Shown here: positions 43,337 through 59,146 of the stretch, one piece after another
How positions within the stretch are numbered: position 1 is the stretch's first letter
Layout of the letters: the number at the start of each line of letters is the position of its first letter
Assembly (NCBI GenBank): GCA_900315885.1
Contig: ONAT01000005.1
Location: 1-64,000, forward strand
Length of the DNA: 64,000 nucleotides
From: an uncultured Erysipelotrichaceae bacterium
GTDB lineage: Bacteria > Bacillota_I > Bacilli_A > RFN20 > CAG-826
Direction of reading: 5' to 3'
Position numbers and translations under genes: made by a program
The notes under the pieces: generated by a model
Database searches by the model: none
Told to the model about the DNA's origin: nothing
Seen by the model: the letters and a program-made list of their open reading frames with translations, nothing else

Positions 43337-43397
43337 TTGACAGCGCTTTCAATAGTTTATATAATATAAATGAAGTTTAGTAAAACGATTTACTAAA
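43337..43397 (+). promoter_or_regulatory. Operon promoter with cre-like and LacI-type sites
   Basis: Perfect consensus TTGACA (43337-43342), 17-base spacer, TATAAT (43360-43365). Over the -35 lies TGACAGCGCTTTCA (43338-43351), a 13 of 14 match to the CcpA cre consensus. Downstream, 43376-43397 is a 22-bp palindrome with arms TTTAGTAAA and TTTACTAAA and a central CG, the LacI-family style, ending just before the ribosome site. Binding by the operon's own LacI protein is inferred. Confidence 0.75.
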
Positions 43398-43410
43398 TGT
43401 GGAGGTTCGT

Positions 43411-45303
43411 ATGGCAAGTGTCAAATTAAATCATATTTATAAAGTTTATGAAAATGGTACTAATGCAGTATCAGATTTCAATATGGAAATAGAAGATAAA
43501 GAGTTTATTGTTTTCGTTGGTCCCTCTGGATGTGGTAAATCAACAACGTTGCGTATGATTGCAGGCCTAGAAGAGATTACGGCAGGGGACTTATTTATTG
43601 ATGGTAAACTTGTAAACGAACTTGAACCTAAAGACCGTGATGTTGCGATGGTATTCCAAAATTACGCTCTTTACCCACATATGACTGTATTTAATAATAT
43701 GGCATTTGGTTTACATATTGCCAAAGTTCCTAAGGATGAAATTGAAAGAAGAGTTCACGAAGCAGCCAAAATATTAGATATTGAAGAATATTTAGAGAAG
43801 AAGCCTCGTGAAATGTCTGGTGGACAACGTCAAAGAGTGGCTTTAGGACGTGCTATTGTTCGCAATCCTAAAGTATTCCTTCTTGATGAACCATTAAGTA
43901 ACCTTGACGCAAAGTTACGTGCAACTATGCGTACAGAGATTTCTAAATTACATAATAAACTTCAAACAACTTTTATTTATGTTACTCATGACCAAGTAGA
44001 AGCTATGACAATGGGAACAAGAATTGTTGTTATGAAGAAAGGTTATGTCCAGCAAATAGATTCTCCAAAAAATTTATACATGTATCCAGCAAATAAGTTT
44101 GTCGCAGGATTTATTGGAACGCCACAAATGAACTTCTTTAAAGGAAAAATTACTATTGAAAAAGGTAAAGCTAAAATTTCATTAGAGAATCAAAACATTT
44201 ATATTTCATTAGATATTGTAGAAAAAATGGACAAAAAATATTTTGATGAGAGAGAAATTGTTGTAGGTATACGTGCTGAAGATATCCATTATGATTCTAA
44301 TAATGATAATAATGATTTGATTATAAATGTTGTACCACAAGTTGTAGAAGAATTGGGGGCAGAGACACTTATTAATTCCAATTTAGCAAATTCTAATTGC
44401 CAAGTTACTTTTAAGGTTAAAAATACAGTTGATGTTGAAACTAATAAGACATTAAAAGTATATGTTGACCCTACAAAATTACATTTCTTTGATGTAGAAA
44501 CAGAAACAACACTTTTACCAAGAGTTCCAGAAAAGAGACATTTCCTCATTAAATATAATAAAGCAAAATGCAAATTATTTAATAAGACTATTGAGTTACC
44601 TCTAGTGTTTAAAGAAGCAATGGAAGATGGAAAAGAATATTTGTTCACAATACCAACTGTTTCAGTTAAGTTAGGAAATACTTTTAAAGGTGTAATTAAA
44701 CGTTGTGAAAAGATTAACAAAAAATATCTTTTACATATTGCATGCAAAGATGATTTAGTATTTTGCTTAAATGAAGAAGCTTTAGAAGAAGGACAAGAAG
44801 TTAGTTTTGATATAGATTTTACCAAAGTTATCGTTAATGAAGATGAAAAAGTAGTGGTAAATGAAATTCCTGATTACAATCATATTATTGGAAGATTACA
44901 TCGTATTAAAGCACTTGTACCAGTTGAAAGAAAAGGTAAGACAATCCAAAAGAAAAAGACTGGATTCCAATTTGATATTGCCGGAACATATATTGATGTT
45001 CCTTATGAAATGTATGACAAAACATTAGCGGTTTTAGTTAAAAAGTTTGAATTACATAAAATCGAATATAGTTTTAAAACTTCTTTAGTGGCATCAAAAG
45101 AAGAAGGCATTGAAATTGAATTAAAGAAAGCCATGGAATATGGTAAAGAATTGCATTATGGTGTCTTTACAATTAAACAAAATCAAGAAGAAATAGTGTT
45201 ACGTTTACCAGAAGATTACGAAAATGCTGATAAATTATATTTAAAACTCAATTATGAAGATTTAAAAGCTCGTGATACACACTTTGATATTAGATTAAAA
45301 TAG
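43411..45303 (+). CDS. MsmK/UgpC-type sugar ABC ATPase with long C-terminal extension
   Basis: Drives the oligosaccharide importer encoded downstream. 630 aa, against about 370 for MsmK/UgpC. Walker A is GPSGCGKST, the signature [14 protein letters not shown], Walker [13 protein letters not shown], and [11 protein letters not shown] has the H-loop. The MalK-like regulatory beta domain follows ([18 protein letters not shown]). The last 260 residues are extra: beta-rich with two similar units ([15 protein letters not shown] and [18 protein letters not shown]) that may be additional TOBE-like folds. The start follows GGAGGT, and an upstream GTG lacks one. It is the first gene of the operon. Confidence 0.9.
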
Positions 45304-45313
45304 AGGGCGCAAT

Positions 45314-46342
45314 ATGAAAACAGTATGTATTAAAGATATAGCAAAGAAATCAGGAGTTTCGATAACCGCGGTTTCGTTAATATTAAATAACAAAGCGACA
45401 TCAATTCCTGAAGAAACAATTCAAAGAGTGAAAAAAGTTGCCAGTGAATCAGGTTATAGACCTAACGCTATTGCATCATCACTCAAAACAAAAAGAACAA
45501 AGACTATTGGTTATGTGATGCCAAGTATTGAAAACAGTTTTTTCTCTGAAATTGCTAAAAAAGTTGAAAAAATTGTAGAACCATCAGGATATAGCATTAT
45601 TATTTGTAGTTCTGATGATAAGTTTGAAAAAGATTATAACTTAATTCAAATGCTTACATCACGTATGATTGATTTTTTACTTTATTGTCCAAGTTCTGAA
45701 ACTTTAAAAAGTGAAAATCTACATAAAATTATTACATTACTCCACTCAATTGATACACCTTATGTTGTTGTCGATAGACAAATTAAAGGCGATATCAAAT
45801 CTAAGGTCGTTTGTGATGACCATCAAGGTGGAATGCTTGCTACGCAACATTTAATTGAGAATGGCCATAAAAAAATCGCATGTATCACAGGACCATTAGA
45901 AATGTCTAGTGCAAACAACCGTTATTTAGGATATGAAGATTCTTTAAAAGAAAATAATATCCCATTTGTTAAAGATTACGTTTTTTACGGCAATTTTGAC
46001 TTTGAATCTGGTTATAAGCAAGCAAAAGAAGCTTTAAAAACAGATGTTACCGCAATGTTTGTGTGCAACGATTTAATGGCGTATGGTGCTTTAAAAGCAA
46101 TCAAAGAATCAGGAAAGAAAGTTCCGCAAGATATTTCTATTGTGGGATACGATGATTTGATGTTTTCTGAATTACTTGATACTCCATTAACAACAATTCA
46201 TCAAGATATCGATGCAATCGCTGATTGTATTGGTAAATATATAATCTCTGTTTTAGAAGAGAAGAACACAGAAATTACAATTAAAGCTGTACCTTCTTAT
46301 CTTGTAAAACGTTCAACAGTTGCAAGAAGGGAGGAAAAATAG
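45314..46342 (+). CDS. LacI-family transcriptional repressor
   Basis: 342 aa. HTH and hinge: VCIKDIAKKSGVSITAVSLI, LNNKATSIPEETIQRVKK, GYRPNAIASSLKTKRT. The periplasmic-binding-like core follows (IGYVMPSIENSFFSEIAKKV, ACITGPLEMSSANNRYLGYE, VPQDISIVGYDDLMFSELLD, PLTTIHQD). It is the second gene of the operon, 11 bases after the ATPase, so it is autoregulated; palindromes in the promoter region at 43338 and 43376 are its likely targets. The inducer should be a sugar derived from the imported substrate. Confidence 0.92.
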   Translation: MKTVCIKDIAKKSGVSITAVSLILNNKATSIPEETIQRVKKVASESGYRPNAIASSLKTKRTKTIGYVMPSIENSFFSEIAKKVEKIVEPSGYSIIICSSDDKFEKDYNLIQMLTSRMIDFLLYCPSSETLKSENLHKIITLLHSIDTPYVVVDRQIKGDIKSKVVCDDHQGGMLATQHLIENGHKKIACITGPLEMSSANNRYLGYEDSLKENNIPFVKDYVFYGNFDFESGYKQAKEALKTDVTAMFVCNDLMAYGALKAIKESGKKVPQDISIVGYDDLMFSELLDTPLTTIHQDIDAIADCIGKYIISVLEEKNTEITIKAVPSYLVKRSTVARREEK

Positions 46343-46343
46343 T

Positions 46344-47309
46344 ATGTCAAAAAAGAAAGACGAAACAATAGACAATTTAGCTTTTCCTTCTCGTAAAAGT
46401 AAAAAGTGGAAGTCGTCTGAAAAACAATTATTCTTGATGGCAATGTTAGGCATCATATACGTTATCGTATTTGCTTACGCTCCAATGTTTGGTATTGCTT
46501 TAGCTTTTAAAGATCCAGACTATCCTTCCATTAATATTTTACAAACTTTACTTTATGCACCTTGGGCTGGATTTAGAAATTTTGCTGATTTCTTTACTGA
46601 CCCAGAGTTTGGAAAAGTAATGTGGAATACATTAGGTTTAAATATTCTACAATTACTTATTAACTTCCCAGCTCCAATTATATTTGCGGTTTTATTAAGT
46701 GAAATCCAATCGAAAAAATTTAGAAAATTAATTCAAACAATTACATATTTCCCATATTTCCTATCTTGGGTAGTATTTGGCGGAATTATCTTAATTTTGA
46801 TGGAAAATAATGGCGTTATAAACAATGTATTACAAGCACTTCATTTTATTGATGAACCAATTAATTTCGGTGAGCCTCAATATTTCTGGCCAACAATTAT
46901 TATTACTTCATTAATAAAAGGATTAGGATGGGGCGCAATTATCTATATCGCCGCTATTGCGGGAATTGACCCTCAACTATATGAAGCAGCGAGAATGGAT
47001 GGGGCAAATAGATGGCATCGTATTTGGCATATTACAATTCCAAGTATTGCACCAACAATTGTCTTGTTCTTTATCTTATCTTTATCGGGAATCTTAAATA
47101 ATGGCTTTGATCATATTTATACATTCCAAAACGCTATTAACCTAGACCGTTCAGAAGTTTTAGATACATTTATTTATCGTAATGGTATTGTTAACCAACA
47201 ATATGCTTATACAACCGCGGTCGGCTTATTTAAATCAGTTGTCGCAATTATCCTTCTTGTTGCAGGTAATAAAATCTGTAAGAAGATAACAGGAAATGGG
47301 GTGATTTAA
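46344..47309 (+). CDS. Sugar ABC transporter permease 1 (LplB/YteP type)
   Basis: Membrane subunit of a CUT1-type importer. 321 aa with six helices; the EAA loop that contacts the ATPase is YEAARMDGANRWHRIWHITI. A basic polar head (KKKDETIDNLAFPSRKSKKW) precedes helix 1. The start at 46344 follows GGGAGG; an upstream in-frame start lies inside lacI. The next gene begins two bases later. LplB/YteP-type permeases usually serve complex oligosaccharides such as rhamnogalacturonan fragments. Confidence 0.92.
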   Translation: MSKKKDETIDNLAFPSRKSKKWKSSEKQLFLMAMLGIIYVIVFAYAPMFGIALAFKDPDYPSINILQTLLYAPWAGFRNFADFFTDPEFGKVMWNTLGLNILQLLINFPAPIIFAVLLSEIQSKKFRKLIQTITYFPYFLSWVVFGGIILILMENNGVINNVLQALHFIDEPINFGEPQYFWPTIIITSLIKGLGWGAIIYIAAIAGIDPQLYEAARMDGANRWHRIWHITIPSIAPTIVLFFILSLSGILNNGFDHIYTFQNAINLDRSEVLDTFIYRNGIVNQQYAYTTAVGLFKSVVAIILLVAGNKICKKITGNGVI

Positions 47310-47310
47310 G

Positions 47311-48225
47311 ATGGTACGATCAATTCACCAAATGAAAATGAAGGGTTCGAATGGCAAAAAAGCTAAAACTACTTGGTTTGACGTATTAAACTACATCCTC
47401 TTAGGTTTGTTTGCCTTGATATGTCTCTATCCAATGATTTATGTCTTAGCTTGTTCATTAAATACTGGTACTGATTATATTAAAGGTGGTATTTATTTAT
47501 GGCCAAGAGAATGGACATTTGAAAACTTCTTGCTAGTCTTAAACGATGATCGTTTGTGGCGTGCATATGGTATAACCTTAGCCCGTACAGTTCTTGGAAC
47601 TATTAGTGCTCTAGTATATACCGCGATTGTTGGATACGCCATGTCCCGTCAAAACTTAAGAGGACGTAATATCTTTTATAAAATATTCATCTTCACAATG
47701 TTTTTCTCGGGCGGAACAGTTCCTTATTACTTAATTATTAGTGCATTAGGACTTTTCGATAATTTCTTAGTATACATAATTCCAGCGTTATTCTCTGTTT
47801 ATAACATGCTGGTCTTCTCTAATTTCTTTCGAGGAATTCCAGAAGAAATTCGTGAATCTGCAGTTATGGATGGCGCAAGTGAATTTAAGATATTTACTTC
47901 AATTATTATGCCGTTATCTACACCAGTTATTTCTACTGTTGCTTTGTGGATTGCGGTTGGGCATTGGAACTCTTTCTATGACACTATGCTCTATACCTCA
48001 GATAATAGACTTTGGACTTTACAATACTATTTAATGAAAGTTATTAAAGAATCATCAATTCCAACAAACATTGGTGGTTTACCATCTGATATCTTGCAAA
48101 CAGTTTCACCAGAAACAGTCTCATTCGCCGCAATTATTATCTCAGTTATTCCAATCTTGATAGTTTATCCTTTAATCTTCAAGATGTTGACCAAAGGAGT
48201 CGTAGTCGGCTCATTAAAAGGATAG
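47311..48225 (+). CDS. Sugar ABC transporter permease 2 (LplC/YtcP type)
   Basis: Second CUT1 permease, 304 aa, six helices. EAA loop IRESAVMDGASEFKIFTSII, family segments WDVLNYILLGLFALICLYPM-like head and LAVTFAAIIISVIPILIVYPL-like tail (here VSFAAIIISVIPILIVYPLI). It begins two bases after permease 1 and ends 12 bases before the binding protein; together with the ATPase at 43411 the transporter is complete. Confidence 0.92.
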   Translation: MVRSIHQMKMKGSNGKKAKTTWFDVLNYILLGLFALICLYPMIYVLACSLNTGTDYIKGGIYLWPREWTFENFLLVLNDDRLWRAYGITLARTVLGTISALVYTAIVGYAMSRQNLRGRNIFYKIFIFTMFFSGGTVPYYLIISALGLFDNFLVYIIPALFSVYNMLVFSNFFRGIPEEIRESAVMDGASEFKIFTSIIMPLSTPVISTVALWIAVGHWNSFYDTMLYTSDNRLWTLQYYLMKVIKESSIPTNIGGLPSDILQTVSPETVSFAAIIISVIPILIVYPLIFKMLTKGVVVGSLKG

Positions 48226-48237
48226 GAGGAAAGATTT

Positions 48238-49983
48238 ATGAAATCAAAGAAAAAACTATTAGCAGTAGCCTTTATTTCGTTACTACTATCAGGATGTGGT
48301 CCTGCGCCATATCAACCAGGAGAATTCGTGGATGTCAAACTACCTGATTTCCCTGCTACTCCCGATAATGGAGAAGACTCTTGGACTTTAGATAACGAAG
48401 AATTTGACTTTACGTGGTTTGTTAATGACTCAACATTTACATGGCCAAGTTATGGTAGCGATGAAGTATCGCGTATTATCAAAGAAAAGACCGGAGCAAA
48501 CATCCACTTTATTTCCCCAGTTATTGATGATAATTCGCAATTATCTAATATGATTTCCAATAACAAATTACCAGATGTAATTTCTGTTCAATGTTGGTAC
48601 CAACAATGTTCCCAACTTGCTATGCAAGGTTACCTATATCCATTAAATGACTTAATTGATAAATGGGCACCATCACTAAATAACAGATTACAAGAAGATG
48701 TATTCTCATGGTTCTCACTTGGAAATGATAAGACATATGGATTCCCAAACTTTGCTTATTCAAGTAAATATGTTTCAAGCACAGATAAAATGGAACCTAA
48801 TGGTGCAATATTAGTCCGTGAAGATTGGTATAAAGAAGCTTGTAACGCTATTAAAGGTGATATGACAAGTCCAGAATCATTTATTGCTGGATGCAATTAC
48901 ATTAGACAAAAATATAGTAAATCTATCCCAATTCAACTTGATGTCTTCGATAGCGAAGGTAATGACTCAATTAAATGGTTATCACAATACTTCGCAACAC
49001 CATTTGAAGATGAACAAGGAAATTATGTCTACAATATGACGCATGAAAAATATTATGAAACATTACAATTCTTGCGTGAGTGTTATAACGAAAAATTAAT
49101 TATGGATGATAACTTCTCTGCAAATACTGCTCAAGTAAGAACGAAAATTGCTTCTGGTAATGTGTTTGTATCCATGGTAACACCACAAGATTATCAACAA
49201 GGATTTATTGCAGCATATAATTCAGATGTTAAATATGTCCCTCTTATTTTAAGAAATTATGAAGGTGACGATCCAATTTTACAAGACATCCGTGGTATGG
49301 GTTACTTATATACAATGGTTACTACAAATGCAAAAAGACCAGACAAAATCATAAAAGTATTAGATTTCTTATATTCTGAAGAAGGACAAAGATTAGTGGC
49401 TTTCGGTAAAGAAGGCGAAACTTGGAATTGGAAAGATGAAAAACATGAAGAAGTTGTTTGGACACAAGAGTATCTCGATAGTGTTTCAAAAGATGATACA
49501 GGTAAATATGGTTTATACCAAATGACTTTGATGATGAACCTTGCTTATATTAATAAGATTAAACCATTAAATGGCCGTAAAGATGTTGATGTTTATATTG
49601 ATAATTTAAAACGACCAGCTTCACCATATAGTTATGATTACACAGCGTCATTCTTAAAAGATGATACTTCCGATAAGAGCTATAACGAATTATCTGTTAA
49701 CGAGACCAAAGGTGTTCAAAGATGGTCGACATCTTACTTAGCCAAAGTTCTCCGTTCTTCCACAAAAGAACAAGCAAAACAATATTATGATCAAGGTATT
49801 GCTTACATGCGTAAAAACTGTATGTTAGACCGCGTTATTGAATTTAACGCTAAGAGTTATCAACGTGCAAAAGACGCTCTAGGTCTAGAATACGTTTGGC
49901 CAAAGAATTTAAGCACTTATATTTCACCTGAGACTGGACCAAATGGAGATTTCTCCTATTGGAGAGGTGCAACTCATGAATAA
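48238..49983 (+). CDS. Extracellular oligosaccharide-binding lipoprotein
   Basis: Captures substrate for the importer. 581 aa, family 1 large-size class (LplA/YtcQ type). Signal peptide with lipobox LLLSGC, lipidated Cys at residue 20. The mature protein has the usual two-lobe pattern (VISVQCWYQQCSQLAMQGYL, YPLNDLIDKWAPSLNNRL, DFLYSEEGQRLVAFGKEGET). Many aromatic residues suit carbohydrate stacking. Its last eight bases overlap the nucleoside hydrolase gene start, so they are coupled. Confidence 0.9.
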   Translation: MKSKKKLLAVAFISLLLSGCGPAPYQPGEFVDVKLPDFPATPDNGEDSWTLDNEEFDFTWFVNDSTFTWPSYGSDEVSRIIKEKTGANIHFISPVIDDNSQLSNMISNNKLPDVISVQCWYQQCSQLAMQGYLYPLNDLIDKWAPSLNNRLQEDVFSWFSLGNDKTYGFPNFAYSSKYVSSTDKMEPNGAILVREDWYKEACNAIKGDMTSPESFIAGCNYIRQKYSKSIPIQLDVFDSEGNDSIKWLSQYFATPFEDEQGNYVYNMTHEKYYETLQFLRECYNEKLIMDDNFSANTAQVRTKIASGNVFVSMVTPQDYQQGFIAAYNSDVKYVPLILRNYEGDDPILQDIRGMGYLYTMVTTNAKRPDKIIKVLDFLYSEEGQRLVAFGKEGETWNWKDEKHEEVVWTQEYLDSVSKDDTGKYGLYQMTLMMNLAYINKIKPLNGRKDVDVYIDNLKRPASPYSYDYTASFLKDDTSDKSYNELSVNETKGVQRWSTSYLAKVLRSSTKEQAKQYYDQGIAYMRKNCMLDRVIEFNAKSYQRAKDALGLEYVWPKNLSTYISPETGPNGDFSYWRGATHE

Positions 49984-50905
49984 AAAAGAACGAGTTATTT
50001 TAGATACTGATATTGGTGATGATATTGATGATGCCTTTGCTTTATATTTGTTGTTACAAGAAAAAAGAGCGAAACTTCTAGGAGTTACAACAGTATTTCG
50101 CAACGCGCGTCAAAGAGCAAAAATGGCTAGTTTCTTAATTTCGACTTTTAAAAAGAAAGTGCCAGTATATGCTGGATGTGATGAACCGCTCATTGCCAAA
50201 GTAAAAAATCTTATTCCTCCAGAAATTCAAGCTAAGGAGACAAAAGATAAATTTGGTAAATATTATATCCCTCAATTTATGGAATTTATGGAAGATGCTC
50301 ATATTGAAGAAAAACATGCAGTAGATTTCATTATTGAGTCAATTCATAAATATCCTCATGAAGTTACAATATTTGGAATTGGACCATTAACCAATATTGC
50401 TATGGCAATTCGTAAAGATCCAAGTATTGTTCCACTTATTAAAGAAATAAGGATAATGGGTGGTGATCCAACAAATATCAATATAAAAGAATGGAATATC
50501 TTCTGTGACCCAGAAGCGGCACACATTGTATTTGATGCCATAGTTCCAATATATGAAGTTGGATTAAATGTTACATTGAAATGCCAATTAACCCAAGAGT
50601 ATCGAGATATTCTTACAAATATTCATGATGATAGATTTATTTTATTAACAAAAATGATGGAAAAGTGGTTTAAACATTATGAATTTACGATACCAGTTAT
50701 GCATGACCCGTTAGCGGTTGCCACAATGTTTGGTGATTTCTGTGAATTTGAAAAATTACCATTAACTGTTGGATTAGAAAATGAAAAAAGAGCATTAACA
50801 TATTGTGACAAAATAGGAAATGATGTCTATAGTGCCAAAAAAGTTAATGTAGATGCATTCTTTAAATATTTTATAAAAACAATATTTGAAATTGATAAAA
50901 ATTAA
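49976..50905 (+). CDS. Inosine/uridine-preferring nucleoside hydrolase family protein
   Basis: Cytosolic (no signal peptide), 309 aa. Splits N-ribosides into base and ribose. The calcium site DTDIGDDIDDAFAL is at residues 9-22 and the late active-site segment VMHDPLAVATMFG is present; the middle motif reads IRIMGGDPTNINIKEWNIFC DPEAAHIVF-like, with the family GG and N..CDPEAA residues. The start at 49976 follows GGAGAGGTG and overlaps the binding protein stop. Together with the ribokinase gene six kilobases on, it points to a ribose-releasing step after uptake. Some members act on unusual ribosides, so the substrate is open. Confidence 0.88.
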   Translation: MNKKERVILDTDIGDDIDDAFALYLLLQEKRAKLLGVTTVFRNARQRAKMASFLISTFKKKVPVYAGCDEPLIAKVKNLIPPEIQAKETKDKFGKYYIPQFMEFMEDAHIEEKHAVDFIIESIHKYPHEVTIFGIGPLTNIAMAIRKDPSIVPLIKEIRIMGGDPTNINIKEWNIFCDPEAAHIVFDAIVPIYEVGLNVTLKCQLTQEYRDILTNIHDDRFILLTKMMEKWFKHYEFTIPVMHDPLAVATMFGDFCEFEKLPLTVGLENEKRALTYCDKIGNDVYSAKKVNVDAFFKYFIKTIFEIDKN

Positions 50906-50916
50906 ATGGGGGAAAT

Positions 50917-52953
50917 ATGAAAACATTCAAACGATTAATCTATTTATCTAGTTTATTAGCGCTTACGATGACTCCAATGGCAAGAGTGGTTAATGCGCAA
51001 GATATTCCTTTCAAAACAACTTTAGAAGGAGGAGTAAAAGTTTCTTATACTACGGCATCCAAAGATACAAGGTCAACTTTACTTCTAAAACCAACAGGTT
51101 CAGCTGATTTTTCTGGAGATGGCATTGCCATACGTATAAAAAATCATATTGAATCAGGTGGAGGTTCTCCGTTTTTTGTGTTTTTAAACGAAACAGACTC
51201 GGACCGTGTCCAAGCTGGAACAGGAACTTCAACAAGTTATACTTTGTATCATTTAGATGGCACACAAGAATCTCAAACTTATCGTTCGGGAGATAACGCT
51301 ATTAGTCTTCCTGCTTCATTTGATGGGTACATTTATTTACCATATCAAAGCTTTGGTTATGTGAATGGTTATGGTTCTGGTAACGGAACATTTGACTATA
51401 GCACTGTTTATGGATTTTATATAGAAATTAATACTTATTATGATGCCTTTTCTAATTTCTCTTTAGGAGGATTAGAAAAACTTCAAAATAATGTTGCAAC
51501 TACACTTTTAGATCCAACAACATTAAATGACTACACATATGGTAACTATTATTGTAAAGATTATAATGGCGAGTATATCAATCTTGAACATAAAAGTGTT
51601 GGAGGTGGAGAGGTTACTTCCGATGTTGATTATGGAAAAGTTACATTAGATGGTGAACTTAATAAGGGATTACAAGTTTCTTATATTGGCGCGGAAAGTG
51701 ATCTTATTTCGCAATTTGGCATTGTGCCAACGATTCGTAATTACGGCACAGATTGTGACTCGTTAGCGTTTAGAATTAAAAACCATACATCTATTGCTAC
51801 TCCAATTACTATTGGCGTAAAAGATCGAAGTGCTAAGACTTATAGTGTTAACAAAACTGTAGGTAAAAATATCTTCTTTAAAGCAAAAGATAATACATTA
51901 AGTATCAATGCTTGGAGAAGTTGGGATTCTGCGGTTGTTATACCATCTGGTTTTGATGGTTGGATGATTATTCCATTTGCTTTGTTTAATACAGTTACAG
52001 CAGCAAACCCTAGTGATGTTCGTTCAATTGTCTTCTCTACTTCGGTATTTAAATCTTATGATGCTTTTACAATCTTGACATTTGGTGATATTACAATCAT
52101 TAAATCAGATGCTAGTTTAACAAAATTATTAACTCCAAGTACTTTAACTGAAGCACAATTTAACGCAACATACGTTAAAAATACAAATACAGAATACATC
52201 CGCTTTACCCGTTACGAAGAACAAACTTTAGTAGCAGAAAGAGAAGGCGATGTTAAATATCTTGAAACATTTACACATGTTAAAACAGATGCAGAGTTAA
52301 ATGGAGAATTCCCAGTTTGGACTGGTGGCTCCACTCTTACAACTACTTTAGTAGATACTTATAACAATAGAAAAGGTATGCAAGTAGATATTGGAGCAGT
52401 TATTCCAAATAACAATATATATGGTTCCATCAATGTCTTCCCAAAATATTATGTTTCTGATTGGAACAATTGGGCTGATGGAGGCGAAAACCATGACCAA
52501 AAGGCTGAAGGTGTCACTTGCTATTTGAAAAACTTATCTCGTAAAGAAATTATTATGAATCTTGAGTTTGATGAAATAACTAAGAAAAATAATAAAAACG
52601 TTACAGAGAGATGGAATGTTCAATTAGGCGCAATGATTATGTATTACGACATTAATACAAATCAAGAATTTATTAGAATGGCTAAACCGGCAATTGTTAT
52701 ACCTGTTAATTTTGAAGGTTATATTCGTATTGATTTCTCACAATATTCTGTCCCAGTTTGGTGTACAGATGGTGATTTGCAACTTGATGTAAGTGCAAAT
52801 ATGGCGGGAATGTATGTAACTACAGATTGCTCTAATAATGAAGGTTTATCATTCGTTATTTCCGATTGTGGTATCTATTTCAATAAAACAGAGATTTCTT
52901 CGTTCTTTGAAGAAAGTGAAAATTCTATTCGTTCAAACATGGGGAGGAATTAA
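50917..52953 (+). CDS. Large secreted protein with three beta-rich modules
   Basis: 678 aa with a classical signal peptide (LIYLSSLLALTMTPMARVVNA, cleaved near residue 27). Three modules of about 200 residues: 33-225, 228-440 and 443-665. Module 1 has SGDGIAIRIKNHIE, LNETDSDRV, PASFDGYIYLPYQSF and YSTVYGFYIEIN; modules 2 and 3 keep the LAFRIKN, SGFDGWMIIPF and NFEGYIRIDFS parts. The 737-aa lipoprotein at 56933 has two more copies. I know no family for it; the Phe-Asp-Gly-Tyr beta pattern suggests carbohydrate binding (inference). No anchor motif or enzyme motif is seen. Confidence 0.8.
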   Translation: MKTFKRLIYLSSLLALTMTPMARVVNAQDIPFKTTLEGGVKVSYTTASKDTRSTLLLKPTGSADFSGDGIAIRIKNHIESGGGSPFFVFLNETDSDRVQAGTGTSTSYTLYHLDGTQESQTYRSGDNAISLPASFDGYIYLPYQSFGYVNGYGSGNGTFDYSTVYGFYIEINTYYDAFSNFSLGGLEKLQNNVATTLLDPTTLNDYTYGNYYCKDYNGEYINLEHKSVGGGEVTSDVDYGKVTLDGELNKGLQVSYIGAESDLISQFGIVPTIRNYGTDCDSLAFRIKNHTSIATPITIGVKDRSAKTYSVNKTVGKNIFFKAKDNTLSINAWRSWDSAVVIPSGFDGWMIIPFALFNTVTAANPSDVRSIVFSTSVFKSYDAFTILTFGDITIIKSDASLTKLLTPSTLTEAQFNATYVKNTNTEYIRFTRYEEQTLVAEREGDVKYLETFTHVKTDAELNGEFPVWTGGSTLTTTLVDTYNNRKGMQVDIGAVIPNNNIYGSINVFPKYYVSDWNNWADGGENHDQKAEGVTCYLKNLSRKEIIMNLEFDEITKKNNKNVTERWNVQLGAMIMYYDINTNQEFIRMAKPAIVIPVNFEGYIRIDFSQYSVPVWCTDGDLQLDVSANMAGMYVTTDCSNNEGLSFVISDCGIYFNKTEISSFFEESENSIRSNMGRN

Positions 52954-52955
52954 GC

Positions 52956-54083
52956 ATGAAAAAGAAATTAATGATGTTAATTTTACCGTTGATGCTATTA
53001 ATGGGGTGTGACACAACAACTCCTAGTACACCACAAGAAAAATTTGAACCTAAAACAAATTATGGCATTGCTCCAATGTTTGATGATACTTTAGGAATTT
53101 ATGATAAAGATCCAGCAATCTTTAAAGAAGATGGAAAAAAATATACTTTCTTTACAACAAATGAAACAAAATATGTGACAGGAGATGTCATTGGTTTACG
53201 TATCGGCACTGAAAACGAAAATGGCGAAACTGTTTATGATAAAACAACGCAAATTGTTTTAAGAGCAAGTGAAAATGATTGGGATTCAATGCGTGTTTCT
53301 AATCCTGATGTTATCAAAGGTGAATTTGCTTATCAAAATGTTACTTATTCTTATTTAATGGCGTTCCAAGGAACTTCAAAAGTAAAAGATAAGTTATATC
53401 AAATCGGTTTTGCAGTTAGTAATGATTTACTAAATTGGAAAAAAGTAGGAAACGAACCAATTATTAAATATTCTTCATACGCTTATGGTTCTGCTTATGG
53501 CGTAGGTGCTCCATCACTTGTAAGTTATGATCAAAAAGGAAAATTCTATTGTTTCTATACTTACGCAGACGCATTAATTACAACAACAAGAGTTAGCTAT
53601 TTTGATTGCTCTTCACTAGATGATATTAAAACAGGTGAAGCATCCGCAATATCATCTAAAGGTTTAGAAGATAAATCAGGAGATGTCGTGTTTAATAACG
53701 CAGACTTCATGATTGATAAAGAATCTAACACTATATACTGCGTACGTGATCGTAACCCAGTTATGACTATGCCTGCAACTAGTGATTCAATTCAAGTAGC
53801 AAAAGCGGATTTAAAGATATTAGTTAATCCAAATGATTATGAATGGACACTTGTTACAAGAAGCATTTCTGATTTAGATACTGCTTTATTAGACGGGGAA
53901 GAAAGTCAAGAATTTGGTTGGGAACGTATTTATTCTGCATGTTTAATTAGTGATGCTTATGGACATAAACTAGCTGGAGACAAATTGCCATTAGCTTTTA
54001 GTGTTTCCGCGGTTGGTGTTGGTAGTGAAAACAATAATTACCTATATTCAGGTGCAATTGTTTACTACGAAGTGAATTTATAA
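52956..54083 (+). CDS. Beta-propeller glycosidase-like lipoprotein 1
   Basis: 375 aa; lipobox LMGC with Cys 18. The mature part resembles five-bladed propeller glycosidases (GH43/GH32/GH117-like): YDKDPAIFKEDGKKYTFFTT places an Asp where the GH43 base lies, SNPDVIKGEFAYQNVTYSYL is like the second acidic site, and YGVGAPSLVSYDQKGKFYCF is like the third blade. The catalytic acid is not identified with certainty. It starts two bases after the module protein and is paralogous to the next gene. Likely trims or binds glycan at the cell surface. Confidence 0.75.
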   Translation: MKKKLMMLILPLMLLMGCDTTTPSTPQEKFEPKTNYGIAPMFDDTLGIYDKDPAIFKEDGKKYTFFTTNETKYVTGDVIGLRIGTENENGETVYDKTTQIVLRASENDWDSMRVSNPDVIKGEFAYQNVTYSYLMAFQGTSKVKDKLYQIGFAVSNDLLNWKKVGNEPIIKYSSYAYGSAYGVGAPSLVSYDQKGKFYCFYTYADALITTTRVSYFDCSSLDDIKTGEASAISSKGLEDKSGDVVFNNADFMIDKESNTIYCVRDRNPVMTMPATSDSIQVAKADLKILVNPNDYEWTLVTRSISDLDTALLDGEESQEFGWERIYSACLISDAYGHKLAGDKLPLAFSVSAVGVGSENNNYLYSGAIVYYEVNL

Positions 54084-54097
54084 GGAGGAACTCATAG

Positions 54098-55258
54098 ATG
54101 AAAAAAATAATGAAGTTTGTCTGTTTATTAGCGTTGCTTTGTGGAGGTTGTGATATGAATAGTAATAGTGGTTCAACACCAAATTCTTCTAAACCGACTG
54201 AAGAAGAAAATAAAGTTTATCAATTATTTGAACATAAAAAGGGCGAGACAGAAACTGATCAATTTTATAATTATTGCCCAACATCATTTGAAGAAGATGG
54301 TGTAAGACATATCTACTATTGCGCAAATAAGATACACGGTAATGTTACTGACTACATCGCTTATCGTAGAGGTGTAAAAAACGAAAAAGGAATATGGGAA
54401 TATGGTGAAATATCATATGTCCTTGCTCCAACAGAAAACACTTGGGATTCTCGTCATGTTTGTGATCCAAGCGTTATCAAAGGAGTATTCAATTATAACG
54501 AAGAAACTTATAACTATTTAATGGCCTATTTAGGTTGTGTTACAAGCGATAACACAAAAAATGAAGTTGGCTTAGCAATTGCTAAAAAACCCGAAGGACC
54601 TTGGATTAAAATCGATAATAATCCAATTTGTCATTATGAACTAAATGATAATAAAGGATTTCAATGGGGATATGGACAACCAAGTTTAGTATCCGTAGAT
54701 AAAGAAAGTGAAGTTTTATTATTCTATACAGTTGGTGATGGTGCATCTACATACACACGTGTAGAAAGATGGGATTTTAGTTCTTTAAATAATCCAGTTA
54801 TGGTTTCGGACAATTACAAACGAGTTATTACTCGTGGCTTAAAGAATTTAAATAATGCTCAAGACTACATTTCTAATGCAGACTTTGCTTATGACCCAAC
54901 GAGTGGAAGAATCTATATGATTAAAGATGATCATCCATCTCCAGAAGGAGCGAGTGTAGGTTCAGGAGTAACTATTTATTACTTAGAAGAAGACTTTGAA
55001 AATAAAGATTTCTATCCAGGATATACATTATTTAATGTTGTCGGTGATATGTGGAATGAAATGGATCACATTGATGTATCTGTTTCAGGATTTGCGTTAA
55101 ATCATAACTCTGGATTTGTCACTGATGCTTATGGATGGACATTATCGAATAAAAATATTGATTGCTTATTTACAGCTGCGAATTTCTATCCTAGTTCATT
55201 CTGGGGTACATTAGGTAGCTATAGAATTTATCAATATACAATGGAAATAACAGAATAA
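54098..55258 (+). CDS. Beta-propeller glycosidase-like lipoprotein 2
   Basis: 386 aa; lipobox CGGC with Cys 18, then an Asn/Ser-rich linker. Same blade pattern as the preceding paralogue: YNYCPTSFEEDGVRHIYYCA, CDPSVIKGVFNYNEETYNYL, GYGQPSLVSVDKESEVLLFY, and a shared final segment SDAYGHKLAG/TDAYGWTLSN before the end. The Asp of the first blade (DPAIF in lipoprotein 1) is replaced here by Cys-Pro (CPTSF), so one of the two may be a non-catalytic binding partner. No experimental family assignment is possible from sequence reading. Confidence 0.72.
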   Translation: MKKIMKFVCLLALLCGGCDMNSNSGSTPNSSKPTEEENKVYQLFEHKKGETETDQFYNYCPTSFEEDGVRHIYYCANKIHGNVTDYIAYRRGVKNEKGIWEYGEISYVLAPTENTWDSRHVCDPSVIKGVFNYNEETYNYLMAYLGCVTSDNTKNEVGLAIAKKPEGPWIKIDNNPICHYELNDNKGFQWGYGQPSLVSVDKESEVLLFYTVGDGASTYTRVERWDFSSLNNPVMVSDNYKRVITRGLKNLNNAQDYISNADFAYDPTSGRIYMIKDDHPSPEGASVGSGVTIYYLEEDFENKDFYPGYTLFNVVGDMWNEMDHIDVSVSGFALNHNSGFVTDAYGWTLSNKNIDCLFTAANFYPSSFWGTLGSYRIYQYTMEITE

Positions 55259-55270
55259 GGTGTAAAAATA

Positions 55271-55924
55271 ATGCAGGATTTTGATAAAAAAACTAATGGA
55301 AAAGGCTATAGATTTCTAAAAGTGTTAGGAGACATTTTCGTTTTAAACATTGAGTTTATTTTGGTAACATGCCTTTCCTTAACAGTTCTATTTTTTCCTG
55401 CATTATTTGCCCTTGTTGAGTTGTTTAAAAATGAAAAAACAAGTTATGTTAATCCTTTTTCTGATTACTTCGCTTTAATTAAAAAGCATATTAAAAAGGG
55501 ATTAAAATATTGGATTACTGTTCTTCCAATATACGCTTTATTAGCTTATGTATTATATCTAGATTATCAATTAATACATGCGAACGAAAGCGTTATGGTC
55601 GCGTGGATGAGTTTAATTATTATTATTGGTATTTTAATTGTCTTAACATCTGCGCTTATTGAATTGCCTTTATTTATTGCATATTTTGATGATGAAAAAG
55701 CACTTGATTGCTTTAGAAAAGCATCTTTAATTGCTAGAAAAAAATTGTTGTTAGTTCTTTCATCATGGATGTGCATTCTCTCATTTGTCTTCGTATTTTA
55801 TATGTTCTATCCGCTGATTTTCTTCTTTGGTATAGGACTTATGGTTTATCTAGTAACAAGAATGAGCGAGAGAGTATATGAGCAATTAGTTAGAGAAGAA
55901 AAAGCAAGACTAAAAGAAGAATGA
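55271..55924 (+). CDS. DUF624-like (YesL-type) membrane protein
   Basis: 217 aa with about five membrane helices (ILVTCLSLTVLFFPALFALV; WITVLPIYALLAYVLYL; WMSLIIIIGILIVLTSALIE; SSWMCILSFVFVFYMFYPLI). This size, the FPALFALVELFKN segment and position in a LplABC-type sugar operon fit the DUF624/YesL family, which regularly accompanies CUT1 importers. Role unknown, possibly transporter assembly. It ends in TGA, almost unique among the AT-rich genes here; a TAG follows two codons later. Confidence 0.7.
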   Translation: MQDFDKKTNGKGYRFLKVLGDIFVLNIEFILVTCLSLTVLFFPALFALVELFKNEKTSYVNPFSDYFALIKKHIKKGLKYWITVLPIYALLAYVLYLDYQLIHANESVMVAWMSLIIIIGILIVLTSALIELPLFIAYFDDEKALDCFRKASLIARKKLLLVLSSWMCILSFVFVFYMFYPLIFFFGIGLMVYLVTRMSERVYEQLVREEKARLKEE

Positions 55925-55999
55925 ATGTAGATTACTAATGTAATTTACAGATAGATTATTAGATATTTGATTCGTAATAAATAGGAAAGGAGGAACAAA

Positions 56000-56905
56000 A
56001 TGAAAATTTTAGTTGTTGGCAGTATCAACATGGATTTAGTAACTTATGTTAATTCTTTACCACAGCGTGGGGAGACAACATTCGGCTCAACTTTTATGCA
56101 AAACCCAGGTGGAAAAGGCGCTAATCAAGCATGTGCCGCGGCATTACTTAATGGCGATGTGACATTCCTTGGCGCAATTGGAAGCGATGATTATGGTAAA
56201 GCATTACAAAGTTGTTTATGTAAATGTGGAGTAAAACCAGTTTTAAAAATTTCTAAAACTAAACCGACAGGATGTGCATCAATTATTATTGAAGAAGATG
56301 TGCACGACAATCGAATTATTGTTATTTCAGGAGCGAATGAAGAAATAAAAGAGCATGATATTGATATGCATTTAGATTTACTTCAAGACGCAGACATAAT
56401 AATTATGCAATTAGAAATTCCACTTGAAACTGTAGAGTATGTTGCTACTTTAGCACATAAAATGCATAAAACTGTTATTTTAAATCCAGCACCAGGCAAA
56501 AAACTTAGCGATAATTTATTAACAAAAGTTAACTATTTAACTCCAAATGAAACAGAATTAGCGCTTTTAACGGATTTAGAAGTTAATGATGAAGAATCTT
56601 TAGCAAAAGCGTGTGACTGTTTACTAAATAAAGGGACAAAAAATTTATTAATTACTTTAGGAAGCAAAGGAGTTTATTGGTGTACACAAGATGCTAAAAA
56701 GTTAATACCAGCATTCCGTGTAGACGCTGTCGACACAACTGCAGCAGGAGATTGTTTTAATGGGGCTTTCGCAACATTCTTATCCGAAGGATATGAAGTA
56801 GAAAAAGCAATCTTATATGCTCAAAAAGCCTCTTCAATTTGTGTCCAACGTAAAGGTGCGATTGCATCTTTACCAAGAAGAGAAGAATTGATGATTAAAA
56901 ATTAG
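56000..56905 (+). CDS. rbsK: Ribokinase
   Basis: Phosphorylates ribose to ribose 5-phosphate for the pentose pathway. 301 aa PfkB-family. Substrate motif VVGSINMDLVTYVNSLPQRG and GGKGANQACAAA, the NPAPGKKLSD and TPNETELALL segments, and the catalytic DTTAAGDCFNGAF with the base Asp are intact. Strong AAAGGAGG site; 75 bases separate it from the previous gene without an obvious promoter or terminator. The ribose-specific look of the N-terminal motif supports ribokinase rather than fructokinase. It fits with the nucleoside hydrolase of the operon. Confidence 0.9.
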   Translation: MKILVVGSINMDLVTYVNSLPQRGETTFGSTFMQNPGGKGANQACAAALLNGDVTFLGAIGSDDYGKALQSCLCKCGVKPVLKISKTKPTGCASIIIEEDVHDNRIIVISGANEEIKEHDIDMHLDLLQDADIIIMQLEIPLETVEYVATLAHKMHKTVILNPAPGKKLSDNLLTKVNYLTPNETELALLTDLEVNDEESLAKACDCLLNKGTKNLLITLGSKGVYWCTQDAKKLIPAFRVDAVDTTAAGDCFNGAFATFLSEGYEVEKAILYAQKASSICVQRKGAIASLPRREELMIKN

Positions 56906-56932
56906 ATTTTAAAAGGGAGGAAAAACAAATAA

Positions 56933-59146
56933 ATGAAAAAATCTTTAAAATCTTTACTATTAGTTGCATTTATGGCTGGTGCAACTGCGTTAGTGGGATG
57001 CGATAATAATCAAACATCTACACCAGCGTCAACTCAACCATCAGTGACAACACCTCAACCTTCAGTTGCGCCTAGTGTTGATCCTGCAATTTTGGAAGGC
57101 CAAAAAACTGCCGCTATCACAGAAGTTGAAAACTACAAAAACAAAGATGACTACCGTGATACAGAAAAGGCTCAACTTGAAACATTAATTACAAACACAA
57201 AAACTGTGATTAATCAAGCAACAAGCAAAACAGCTATTGATGAAGCTGTTACACAATTTAAAGCAAGTGCAGATGCTTTAAAGACAAATGCACAATATGA
57301 AGCAGAAGAATTTGCTACTTATAAGACAACAAAAATTAGTGAAGTAGAAAATTACAAAGACAAGAACGATTACCGCGATGCAGAAAAAGCACAATTAGAA
57401 GGATTAATTAATGCTGCTAAAACTGCAATTAATGATGCAACATCAAGAGAAGTTATTGATGGAGTAGTTACTACTTTCAAAACAAACGCAGATGCATTAA
57501 AAACTAATGCTCAATACGAAGCAGAAGAATTTGCAGCTTACAAAGAAACAAAAGTTAGTGAAGTTGAAGGTTATAAAACTGCAACTGACTATCGCGAAAC
57601 CGAACAAACTCAACTTGCAACATTAATTCAAACTGCTAAAGCAAGCATTAATAATGCTACAACAAAAGATGAAATTAATAATGCGGTTACTGAATTCAAA
57701 ACTGCTGCTGATGCACTAAAAACTAAAGCTCAATACGAGGCAGAAGAAGCTCAAGCTTTAGCAGACGCTATTGTAGCAGCTGGCTCGGAAATTGAAAATT
57801 ACGTTAACCCAATTAATTATCGTAAAGCACAAGAAACACAAGTTCTTGATTTAATTGATGAATATTATGCTAAAGTTCAAGCGGCTACATCTATTGATAA
57901 CGTCAATGCAATAGTTACAGAATTTAAAGGCTTGGTTGATGCAATCCCAGTTGATACAGGATTCACTGGTGCTTTAGAAAAAGGTGCTATTGTATCATTT
58001 ACAAAAGCTGCTAATCCAACAGCTGCAGATCTGTTCATTAAACCTGACACAAATAATTGGACTGGCGATGGCTTTGCAATTCGTATTAAAAATACATGTG
58101 GTGCACAAATGTTTATTAATGTTTATTTAAATGAAACAGACTCTGATCGTGTTCATTTAGCAACAGGTGCAAGTTTCTATCTCTACGATGCAAATGGTAA
58201 ATCAATGGCAACTTCTGGAAGAACTTGGGGCTACTACATGTTAGTACCCCATGGTTTTGATGGTTATGTTTATATTCCATATGAAAGTATGGAATTAGAT
58301 CCAAATTATGGTGGAGGAAATAAATCATTTAATTATTCTTCTGTTTATGGATTATATTTAGAAACAGCAGTTGAATGTGATGACTATCAAATCTATGAAG
58401 TGGGCGAGGTTCAAGTACTAAATGGTGACACCATTACTACAGTCGTATCAACAAGCGATTTGACTTCAAGAAACTATAGCTCTAAGTATGTTAAAGATTT
58501 TAATGGCCAATACATTAATACAAGATTTAATGGCGAAGAAGAGCCAGAAGAAACATGTATTTTTAGTGGCTCTTTAACAGGCTCGGAAATTTCATTTAAT
58601 TCAAGTAGCGTTGATCAATTATCTGCTTTGAAATTGTCTGCTAAAAACAACAATTGGGCTGGTGATGGCTTTGCTATTAGAATGAAAGAATTAGCAGGAA
58701 CACTATCCTATATCAGTATGTTTATCAATGAAACTGATGGTGACATTGCTTGTTTAAAAGCAAATGCAACTTATTCTTTATATAACCTAGATGGTACTGT
58801 TACTGAAGGATCAAATAATAGAGGATGGGGAAGCTATTTAACATTGCCTGCAAATTTTGATGGATATGTCTATTTCCCTTATTCAAGCTTCGCCTACAAT
58901 AGAGGAGCAGGCGATAACAATATGACTTATACAGGTATTTGGGGTGTATATTTTGAAATAAATACATTTATAAACTATGGAGATTTCAATCAACATTTCA
59001 TTATTGGTTCAATCGAAGTTAAAAATGGTGACACTGTTACTAAAGTTTTAGATACAACAACATTAACAAACAGCGATTACACACAATATGTTGAAAAAGC
59101 AGGAAATAACGAGAATATTAATCAATCATTCTATTCTGCAAAATAA
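56933..59146 (+). CDS. Repeat lipoprotein: FIVAR-like stalk plus two beta-rich modules
   Basis: 737 aa; lipobox LVGC, Cys 23. A Thr/Pro/Ser linker is followed by four helical repeats of about 72 residues (about 56-342) with the phrase EVENYKNKDDYRDTEKAQLE, related to FIVAR domains, forming a stalk. Then two modules (about 342-538 and 541-737) like those of the protein at 50917: TGDGFAIRIKN/AGDGFAIRMKE, LNETDSDRV/INETDGDIA, HGFDGYVYIPYES/ANFDGYVYFPYSS. Likely a surface glycan-capturing protein on a rigid spacer. Last gene of the operon; strong terminator after it. Confidence 0.8.
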   Translation: MKKSLKSLLLVAFMAGATALVGCDNNQTSTPASTQPSVTTPQPSVAPSVDPAILEGQKTAAITEVENYKNKDDYRDTEKAQLETLITNTKTVINQATSKTAIDEAVTQFKASADALKTNAQYEAEEFATYKTTKISEVENYKDKNDYRDAEKAQLEGLINAAKTAINDATSREVIDGVVTTFKTNADALKTNAQYEAEEFAAYKETKVSEVEGYKTATDYRETEQTQLATLIQTAKASINNATTKDEINNAVTEFKTAADALKTKAQYEAEEAQALADAIVAAGSEIENYVNPINYRKAQETQVLDLIDEYYAKVQAATSIDNVNAIVTEFKGLVDAIPVDTGFTGALEKGAIVSFTKAANPTAADLFIKPDTNNWTGDGFAIRIKNTCGAQMFINVYLNETDSDRVHLATGASFYLYDANGKSMATSGRTWGYYMLVPHGFDGYVYIPYESMELDPNYGGGNKSFNYSSVYGLYLETAVECDDYQIYEVGEVQVLNGDTITTVVSTSDLTSRNYSSKYVKDFNGQYINTRFNGEEEPEETCIFSGSLTGSEISFNSSSVDQLSALKLSAKNNNWAGDGFAIRMKELAGTLSYISMFINETDGDIACLKANATYSLYNLDGTVTEGSNNRGWGSYLTLPANFDGYVYFPYSSFAYNRGAGDNNMTYTGIWGVYFEINTFINYGDFNQHFIIGSIEVKNGDTVTKVLDTTTLTNSDYTQYVEKAGNNENINQSFYSAK

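Follow-up and report, generated by a model that had tools for sequence, protein, structure and literature searches.

The window analysed here is a 64,000-nucleotide stretch from an uncultured Erysipelotrichaceae bacterium (GCA_900315885.1, contig ONAT01000005.1, positions 1 to 64,000). Its forward strand carries genes for an ATP-binding cassette (ABC) sugar importer, glycosidase-like lipoproteins and a ribokinase, together with two surface proteins, designated A (678 amino acids, aa) and B (737 aa), that contain repeated β-rich modules, A1 to A3 in the first and B1 and B2 in the second (Table 1). The sizes and positions given for both proteins in a sequence-only reading of this DNA agreed with the open reading frame listing. 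The repeats are a group of CBM11-like modules, so far without a name, in a conserved ribose-linked operon.

BLASTP aligned A with B at 30% identity across two modules (E=5e-42). The initial module profiles included the window's own modules and were rebuilt using other genomes only, and the resulting N-type hidden Markov model (HMM) consisted of 24 rows, all from other genomes, with zero window sequence. A1, A2, B1 and B2 were recovered by this HMM at the scores listed in Table 1, and the best of 2,000 shuffled A and B sequences scored 10.7 bits. The match of A3 to the N-type HMM was weak (20.6 bits); its match to a C-type profile from other genomes was far above the shuffled maximum of 18.2 bits (2,000 shuffles). 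When the two profiles were compared by hhalign (probability 92.8%, E=4e-7), the N and C types appeared as homologs. The five copies are real, four of them of N type and one, A3, of a divergent C type.

The sequence-only reading had described five copies sharing one pattern. All five were found with the window-free profiles, but they fall into two subtypes, and the quoted pattern is not common to them, as the motifs differ between copies. GDG is present in A1, B1 and B2. The phrase LNETDSDRV is identical in the two proteins, as had been stated, but is restricted to A1 and B1, with NETDGD in B2. FDGY occurs in A1, B1 and B2, and the corresponding residues are FDGW in A2 and FEGY in A3. The conserved residues of the FDG region may be structural, shaping the fold instead of contacting a ligand, and for this reason the shared phrases were not counted as evidence of binding. 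Conserved positions of the module include R46, W94, Y97 and D154 in the numbering of the B1 model.

Neither whole protein gave a Pfam or NCBIfam match above cut-off. Only scattered weak matches were obtained when 41 module rows were scanned singly against Pfam, and when modules were compared with PADLOC and PHROGs. There was no match to CBM11 (PF03425) for whole A, whole B or any of the 41 rows at E up to 1. CBM11 chains were likewise absent from the matches of a PDB profile search at E up to 10. A PF03425 search of 149 genomes of the phylum returned zero matches, with controls equally silent, and is therefore uninformative on absence. The sequence-only reading had recognized no carbohydrate-binding family in these repeats, and the profile search against Pfam likewise gave no confident match by sequence to a characterised family. 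Judged by these comparisons, the modules form a family without a name in the libraries searched (Pfam, NCBIfam). The only significant solved relative by profile was 8SMQ (E 1.9e-5), which represents the N-terminal domain of CD630_25440 from C. difficile.

AlphaFold2 predicted a β-sandwich for B1, from 28 aligned modules (mean predicted local distance difference test score, pLDDT, 92.9; predicted template-modelling score, pTM, 0.90), and for A3, from 13 rows (pLDDT 77.9, pTM 0.80). The top Foldseek matches were the CBM11 entries 6r31 for B1 (E 3.2e-3, probability 1.00, template-modelling (TM) score 0.46 by query and 0.52 by target) and 6r3m for A3 (E 3.5e-5, TM 0.53 by query and 0.68 by target). 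CBM11 was the best solved fold match of both subtypes, from separate alignments, and both models have a CBM11-type β-sandwich, with moderate overlap in the case of B1. The comparison with carbohydrate-binding modules (CBMs) that had been suggested from the sequence thus yielded a CBM-like sandwich, but not a new fold. The modules resemble CBM11 of C. thermocellum Lic26A-Cel5E (6r31, 6r3m, 1v0a, 2lro) in their β-sandwich and in being attached to glycosidases, and differ from it in the absence of any sequence match to the window modules, in the operon and probably in the ligand. GH50 agarases (6xj9, 4bq2-4bq5) and entries of CBM22 and CBM4 also resembled one subtype or both in fold; these superposed weakly (TM by query ~0.2-0.46) and had no detected sequence similarity.

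Among 279 genomes of the order, N-type modules were found in 13, GH43b (E<=1e-30) in 13 and both in 12; the genomes are related, so these counts are not independent events. An earlier sample of the order, with 245 genomes, had the C-type module in the same 12. In the window's genome the modules are confined to A and B, and one genome (G030) has GH43b and no modules. All of the module matches listed lie at the operon except that of G603, a weak match (E 2.1e-8) inside a GH127 β-L-arabinofuranosidase-like lipoprotein. The gene for this lipoprotein (L077) is apparently outside the operon. In L021-L024 the N-type module follows the GH43b domain in a single protein that has, by eye, a C-terminal membrane segment. 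The module thus occurs as a discrete non-catalytic part of carbohydrate-active enzymes, as CBMs do, with GH127 in G603 and with GH43b, itself under the Pfam GH43 cut-off, in L021-L024. Outside a single glycan-import operon the module is almost absent. The earlier suggestion of a glycan-binding module is supported by this confinement, by the fusions to GH43-like and GH127 proteins and by the predicted CBM11-like fold, and a glycan-binding β-sandwich module is the best-supported reading of the repeats.

The modules might instead serve structure or assembly, as a surface scaffold, for enzyme docking or in oligomerisation, with a CBM-like fold that binds no sugar. CD630_25440 is a surface protein of unknown function, and its N-terminal domain forms an octamer with exchanged strands (PMC10792529). 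This nearest solved sequence relative superposes on B1 with a root-mean-square deviation of 1.6 A over 76 columns, and like A and B it belongs to the cell surface; its octameric state and the lack of any known link to the window's operon set it apart. A3 and the C-terminal tail of protein A are also conserved as though docking to something. A purely structural role is at odds with the attachment of the modules to different glycosidase types and with their tie to a glycan-import operon, and we consider it the least probable of the alternatives weighed here.

A search of contigs for relatives with the whole 678-aa protein found none, and a search with the alignment found 17 loci. Where the contig covers them, the genes for the solute-binding protein (SBP), the nucleoside hydrolase, A and GH43a co-occur in Bacilli, Paracholeplasma and Clostridia. 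The order in most loci is LacI - permease - permease - SBP - nucleoside hydrolase - A - GH43a - GH43b, with the ribokinase gene preceding or following this block in most of them. Within the window's family, most loci begin with the ABC ATPase gene. The LacI gene is missing from L021-L023, where a second protein with modules is encoded between the nucleoside hydrolase and A; another 292-aa protein, possibly a different regulator, is encoded upstream in these operons (L021:3511-4389). The nucleoside hydrolase gene is at the far end of the operon in L024, and L026, L061, L063 and L064 are cut by a contig end or lack some upstream genes. In the cultured relative Paracholeplasma vituli (L045/L059) the nucleoside-hydrolase frame is in two pieces, and the two adjacent frames (L059:6589-7483) may reflect a sequencing error, a frameshift or decay. 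In profile comparisons the GH43-like proteins matched solved structures of both GH43 and GH117 (E as low as 4.8e-7 for GH43a), and the ribokinase assignment is above the curated cut-off of TIGR02152.

Table 1. Features of the modular proteins and the surrounding operon in the 64,000-nucleotide window.
Feature	Position	Strand	Evidence or remark
Putative sigma-70 promoter, TTGACA-17-TATAAT	43337..43365	+	12/12 consensus bases; consensus match
RbsR-type operator AGTAAAACGATTTACT	43379..43394	+	upstream of operon; single genome copy
UgpC/MsmX-type ABC ATPase	43399..45303	+	NF008653, 486 bits, cut-off 432
LacI-family repressor, best match RbsR	45314..46342	+	NF047341, 271 bits, cut-off 382
Two sugar-type ABC permeases	46320..48225	+	46320-47309 and 47311-48225
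Extracellular solute-binding lipoprotein (SBP)	48238..49983	+	PF01547, 38.6 vs 26 bits
Nucleoside-hydrolase-family enzyme	49943..50905	+	PF01156, 210 bits; no signal peptide seen
Protein A (678 aa)	50917..52953	+	signal peptide, N-type A1 and A2, C-type A3, conserved C-terminal tail
Module A1, N type	50998..51600	+	112 bits, window-free HMM
Module A2, N type	51622..52221	+	88 bits, window-free HMM; motifs degenerate
Module A3, C type	52258..52950	+	154 bits, window-free C-type HMM
C-terminal tail NSIRSNMGRN of protein A	52921..52950	+	ortholog alignment
GH43a, GH43/GH117-like secreted lipoprotein	52956..54083	+	PF04616 E 2.7e-4, below cut-off
GH43b, GH43/GH117-like secreted lipoprotein	54098..55258	+	module-fused in relatives L021-L024
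DUF624/MusI-like membrane protein	55271..55924	+	NF052431 E 1.8e-5, below cut-off
Ribokinase	56000..56905	+	TIGR02152, 343 bits, cut-off 299.65
Protein B (737 aa), lipoprotein (lipobox LVGC)	56933..59146	+	helical repeat stalk, then B1 and B2; homologous to A
Stalk of protein B, repetitive, probably helical	57098..57946	+	~four units of ~73 aa; TRF
Module B1, N type	57947..58540	+	111 bits, window-free HMM
Module B2, N type	58541..59143	+	110 bits, window-free HMM

Nucleoside salvage classically pairs a nucleoside hydrolase with a ribokinase. A cluster of B. longum containing both has been read as serving nucleoside salvage (PMC13011590). The operon could accordingly scavenge nucleosides, nucleic acid or ADP-ribose-like material, with A and B binding that polymer; in one genome (G020) a protein of 984 aa that contains an Endonuclease I domain is encoded downstream of the operon (L047:1444-4398). 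This reading appears quite unlikely to us, given that none of the conserved genes of the operon was recognised as coding for a nuclease or phosphatase and that nucleosides need neither sugar-type permeases nor GH43-like lipoproteins.

The operator AGTAAAACGATTTACT lies downstream of the putative promoter and four bases ahead of the first listed start codon. At one mismatch it is unique in the 1.32-Mb genome; the reversed pattern, used as a control, had two matches elsewhere. A single match in a genome of this size is therefore nothing unusual, and what counts is where the site lies and that it is conserved. Near-identical palindromes lie upstream of the operon in L024, L042, L043, L044 and L062. 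In L. sakei and E. faecalis the RbsR operator has the core gTAAAACGTTTTAc, and the T of the half-site has been tied to Gln or Leu replacing the usual Arg in the repressor (PMC2329647). The RbsR-type operator GTAAAACGTTTTAC is present exactly in L042 and with one difference, as GTAAAACGATTTAC, in the window. The window's repressor presumably carries Leu at the Gln/Leu position, as judged by alignment. A second palindrome, TGACAGCGCTTTCA (43338-43351), is CcpA/LacI-like and overlaps the -35 box of the operon; a generic LacI/CcpA palindrome pattern had no more matches than chance.

The operon is linked to ribose because its ribokinase is above cut-off, its LacI-family protein has RbsR as best match and its operator is of the RbsR type. 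The GH43/GH117-like enzymes, and the single fusion to a GH127 β-L-arabinofuranosidase-like protein, would also suit modules that bind an arabinofuranosyl or other furanosyl polymer, with the ribose genes as a side branch or the kinase taking another pentose. The curated-level ribokinase and the RbsR-type operator speak against such a polymer, as does the operon itself, in which no arabinose genes were seen, and we regard this alternative as unlikely.

From the fold, the enzyme fusions and the ribose link together, A and B are probably surface arrays of CBM11-like modules, which would hold a ribose-containing glycan at the cell so that an operon dedicated to its uptake can use it. Several observations weigh against this. 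The B1 Foldseek matches are modest (best E 3.2e-3, TM ~0.5) and none passes E 0.001, so that the fold class is reasonably supported and the exact relation is not. A complex I assembly-intermediate chain (7zkq) is among the A3 matches, and CBM11-like sandwiches are also found in proteins that are not known as sugar binders. Against Pfam GH43 the GH43-like proteins score 20-21 bits, short of the cut-off of 32.2, and RbsR is the best of the LacI-family matches, yet at 271 bits against a cut-off of 382 (NF047341). In the stretches examined, no palindrome was seen before L021-L023, which also lack the LacI gene, or before L025, L059 and L065.

If A and B do capture a ribose-containing glycan, the polymer would be bound by A, which is secreted, and by B, a lipoprotein on a helical stalk, and would be cut at the surface by the GH43/GH117-like lipoproteins. 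Fragments would be imported through the solute-binding protein and the ABC permeases, ribose would be freed inside by the cytoplasmic nucleoside-hydrolase-family enzyme, and ribokinase would convert it to ribose-5-phosphate. RbsR would keep the operon off at the single operator until ribose is present. Glowacki et al. 2020 are said to have described how Bacteroides thetaiotaomicron scavenges ribose from bound sources with a nucleoside hydrolase, ribokinase and glycosidases. The operon proposed here would resemble that system in enzyme set and working mode, a likeness of function; the Bacteroides system uses SusC/SusD, whereas the window has a Gram-positive ABC importer, module arrays and RbsR-type control.

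A more far-reaching claim, which we advance tentatively and with some doubt, is that the modules represent a carbohydrate-binding family of their own, new and recognising ribofuranosyl residues, and that the operon lets a Gram-positive organism feed on a ribose-containing polysaccharide. A literature search for ribofuranosidase, or for ribofuranose with GH43, found no paper among those searched, and we know of no assigned binding module for ribose-containing glycans. Through its regulator and kinase, the operon links a module family that has no name to one particular sugar, and the list of candidate ligands is consequently short and testable. If the reading is true, it offers a handle on ribose-containing glycans, and uncultured gut Bacilli, Acholeplasmataceae and Clostridia have a common dedicated pathway for them. 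It also suggests where to look for the function of 8SMQ, the unexplained structure from C. difficile.

Orthologs of protein A were found in 12 order-level genomes and at 17 named-genome loci (the genomes partly overlap), in the same operon context wherever the contig permits. By eye, neither a lipobox nor a C-terminal membrane anchor was seen in protein A. A catalytic role for this protein was rejected, without proof, because no enzyme family matched it and most of the structures that resemble its fold are binding modules. In the stalk of protein B, TRF reported a period of 219 bp with 2.9 copies (57122-57748), and the fourth unit was judged by eye. The nucleoside-hydrolase motif of the window (49943-50905) is DTDIGDDIDDA, conserved among the relatives viewed and apparently longer than that of RihA, which we take to be DCDPGHDDA. 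A3 is the best conserved portion of protein A among its orthologs, whose extreme C-terminus reads NTIKxNMGL in Bacilli and is SIPDLM/IPALMGL-like in Acholeplasmataceae and Clostridia.

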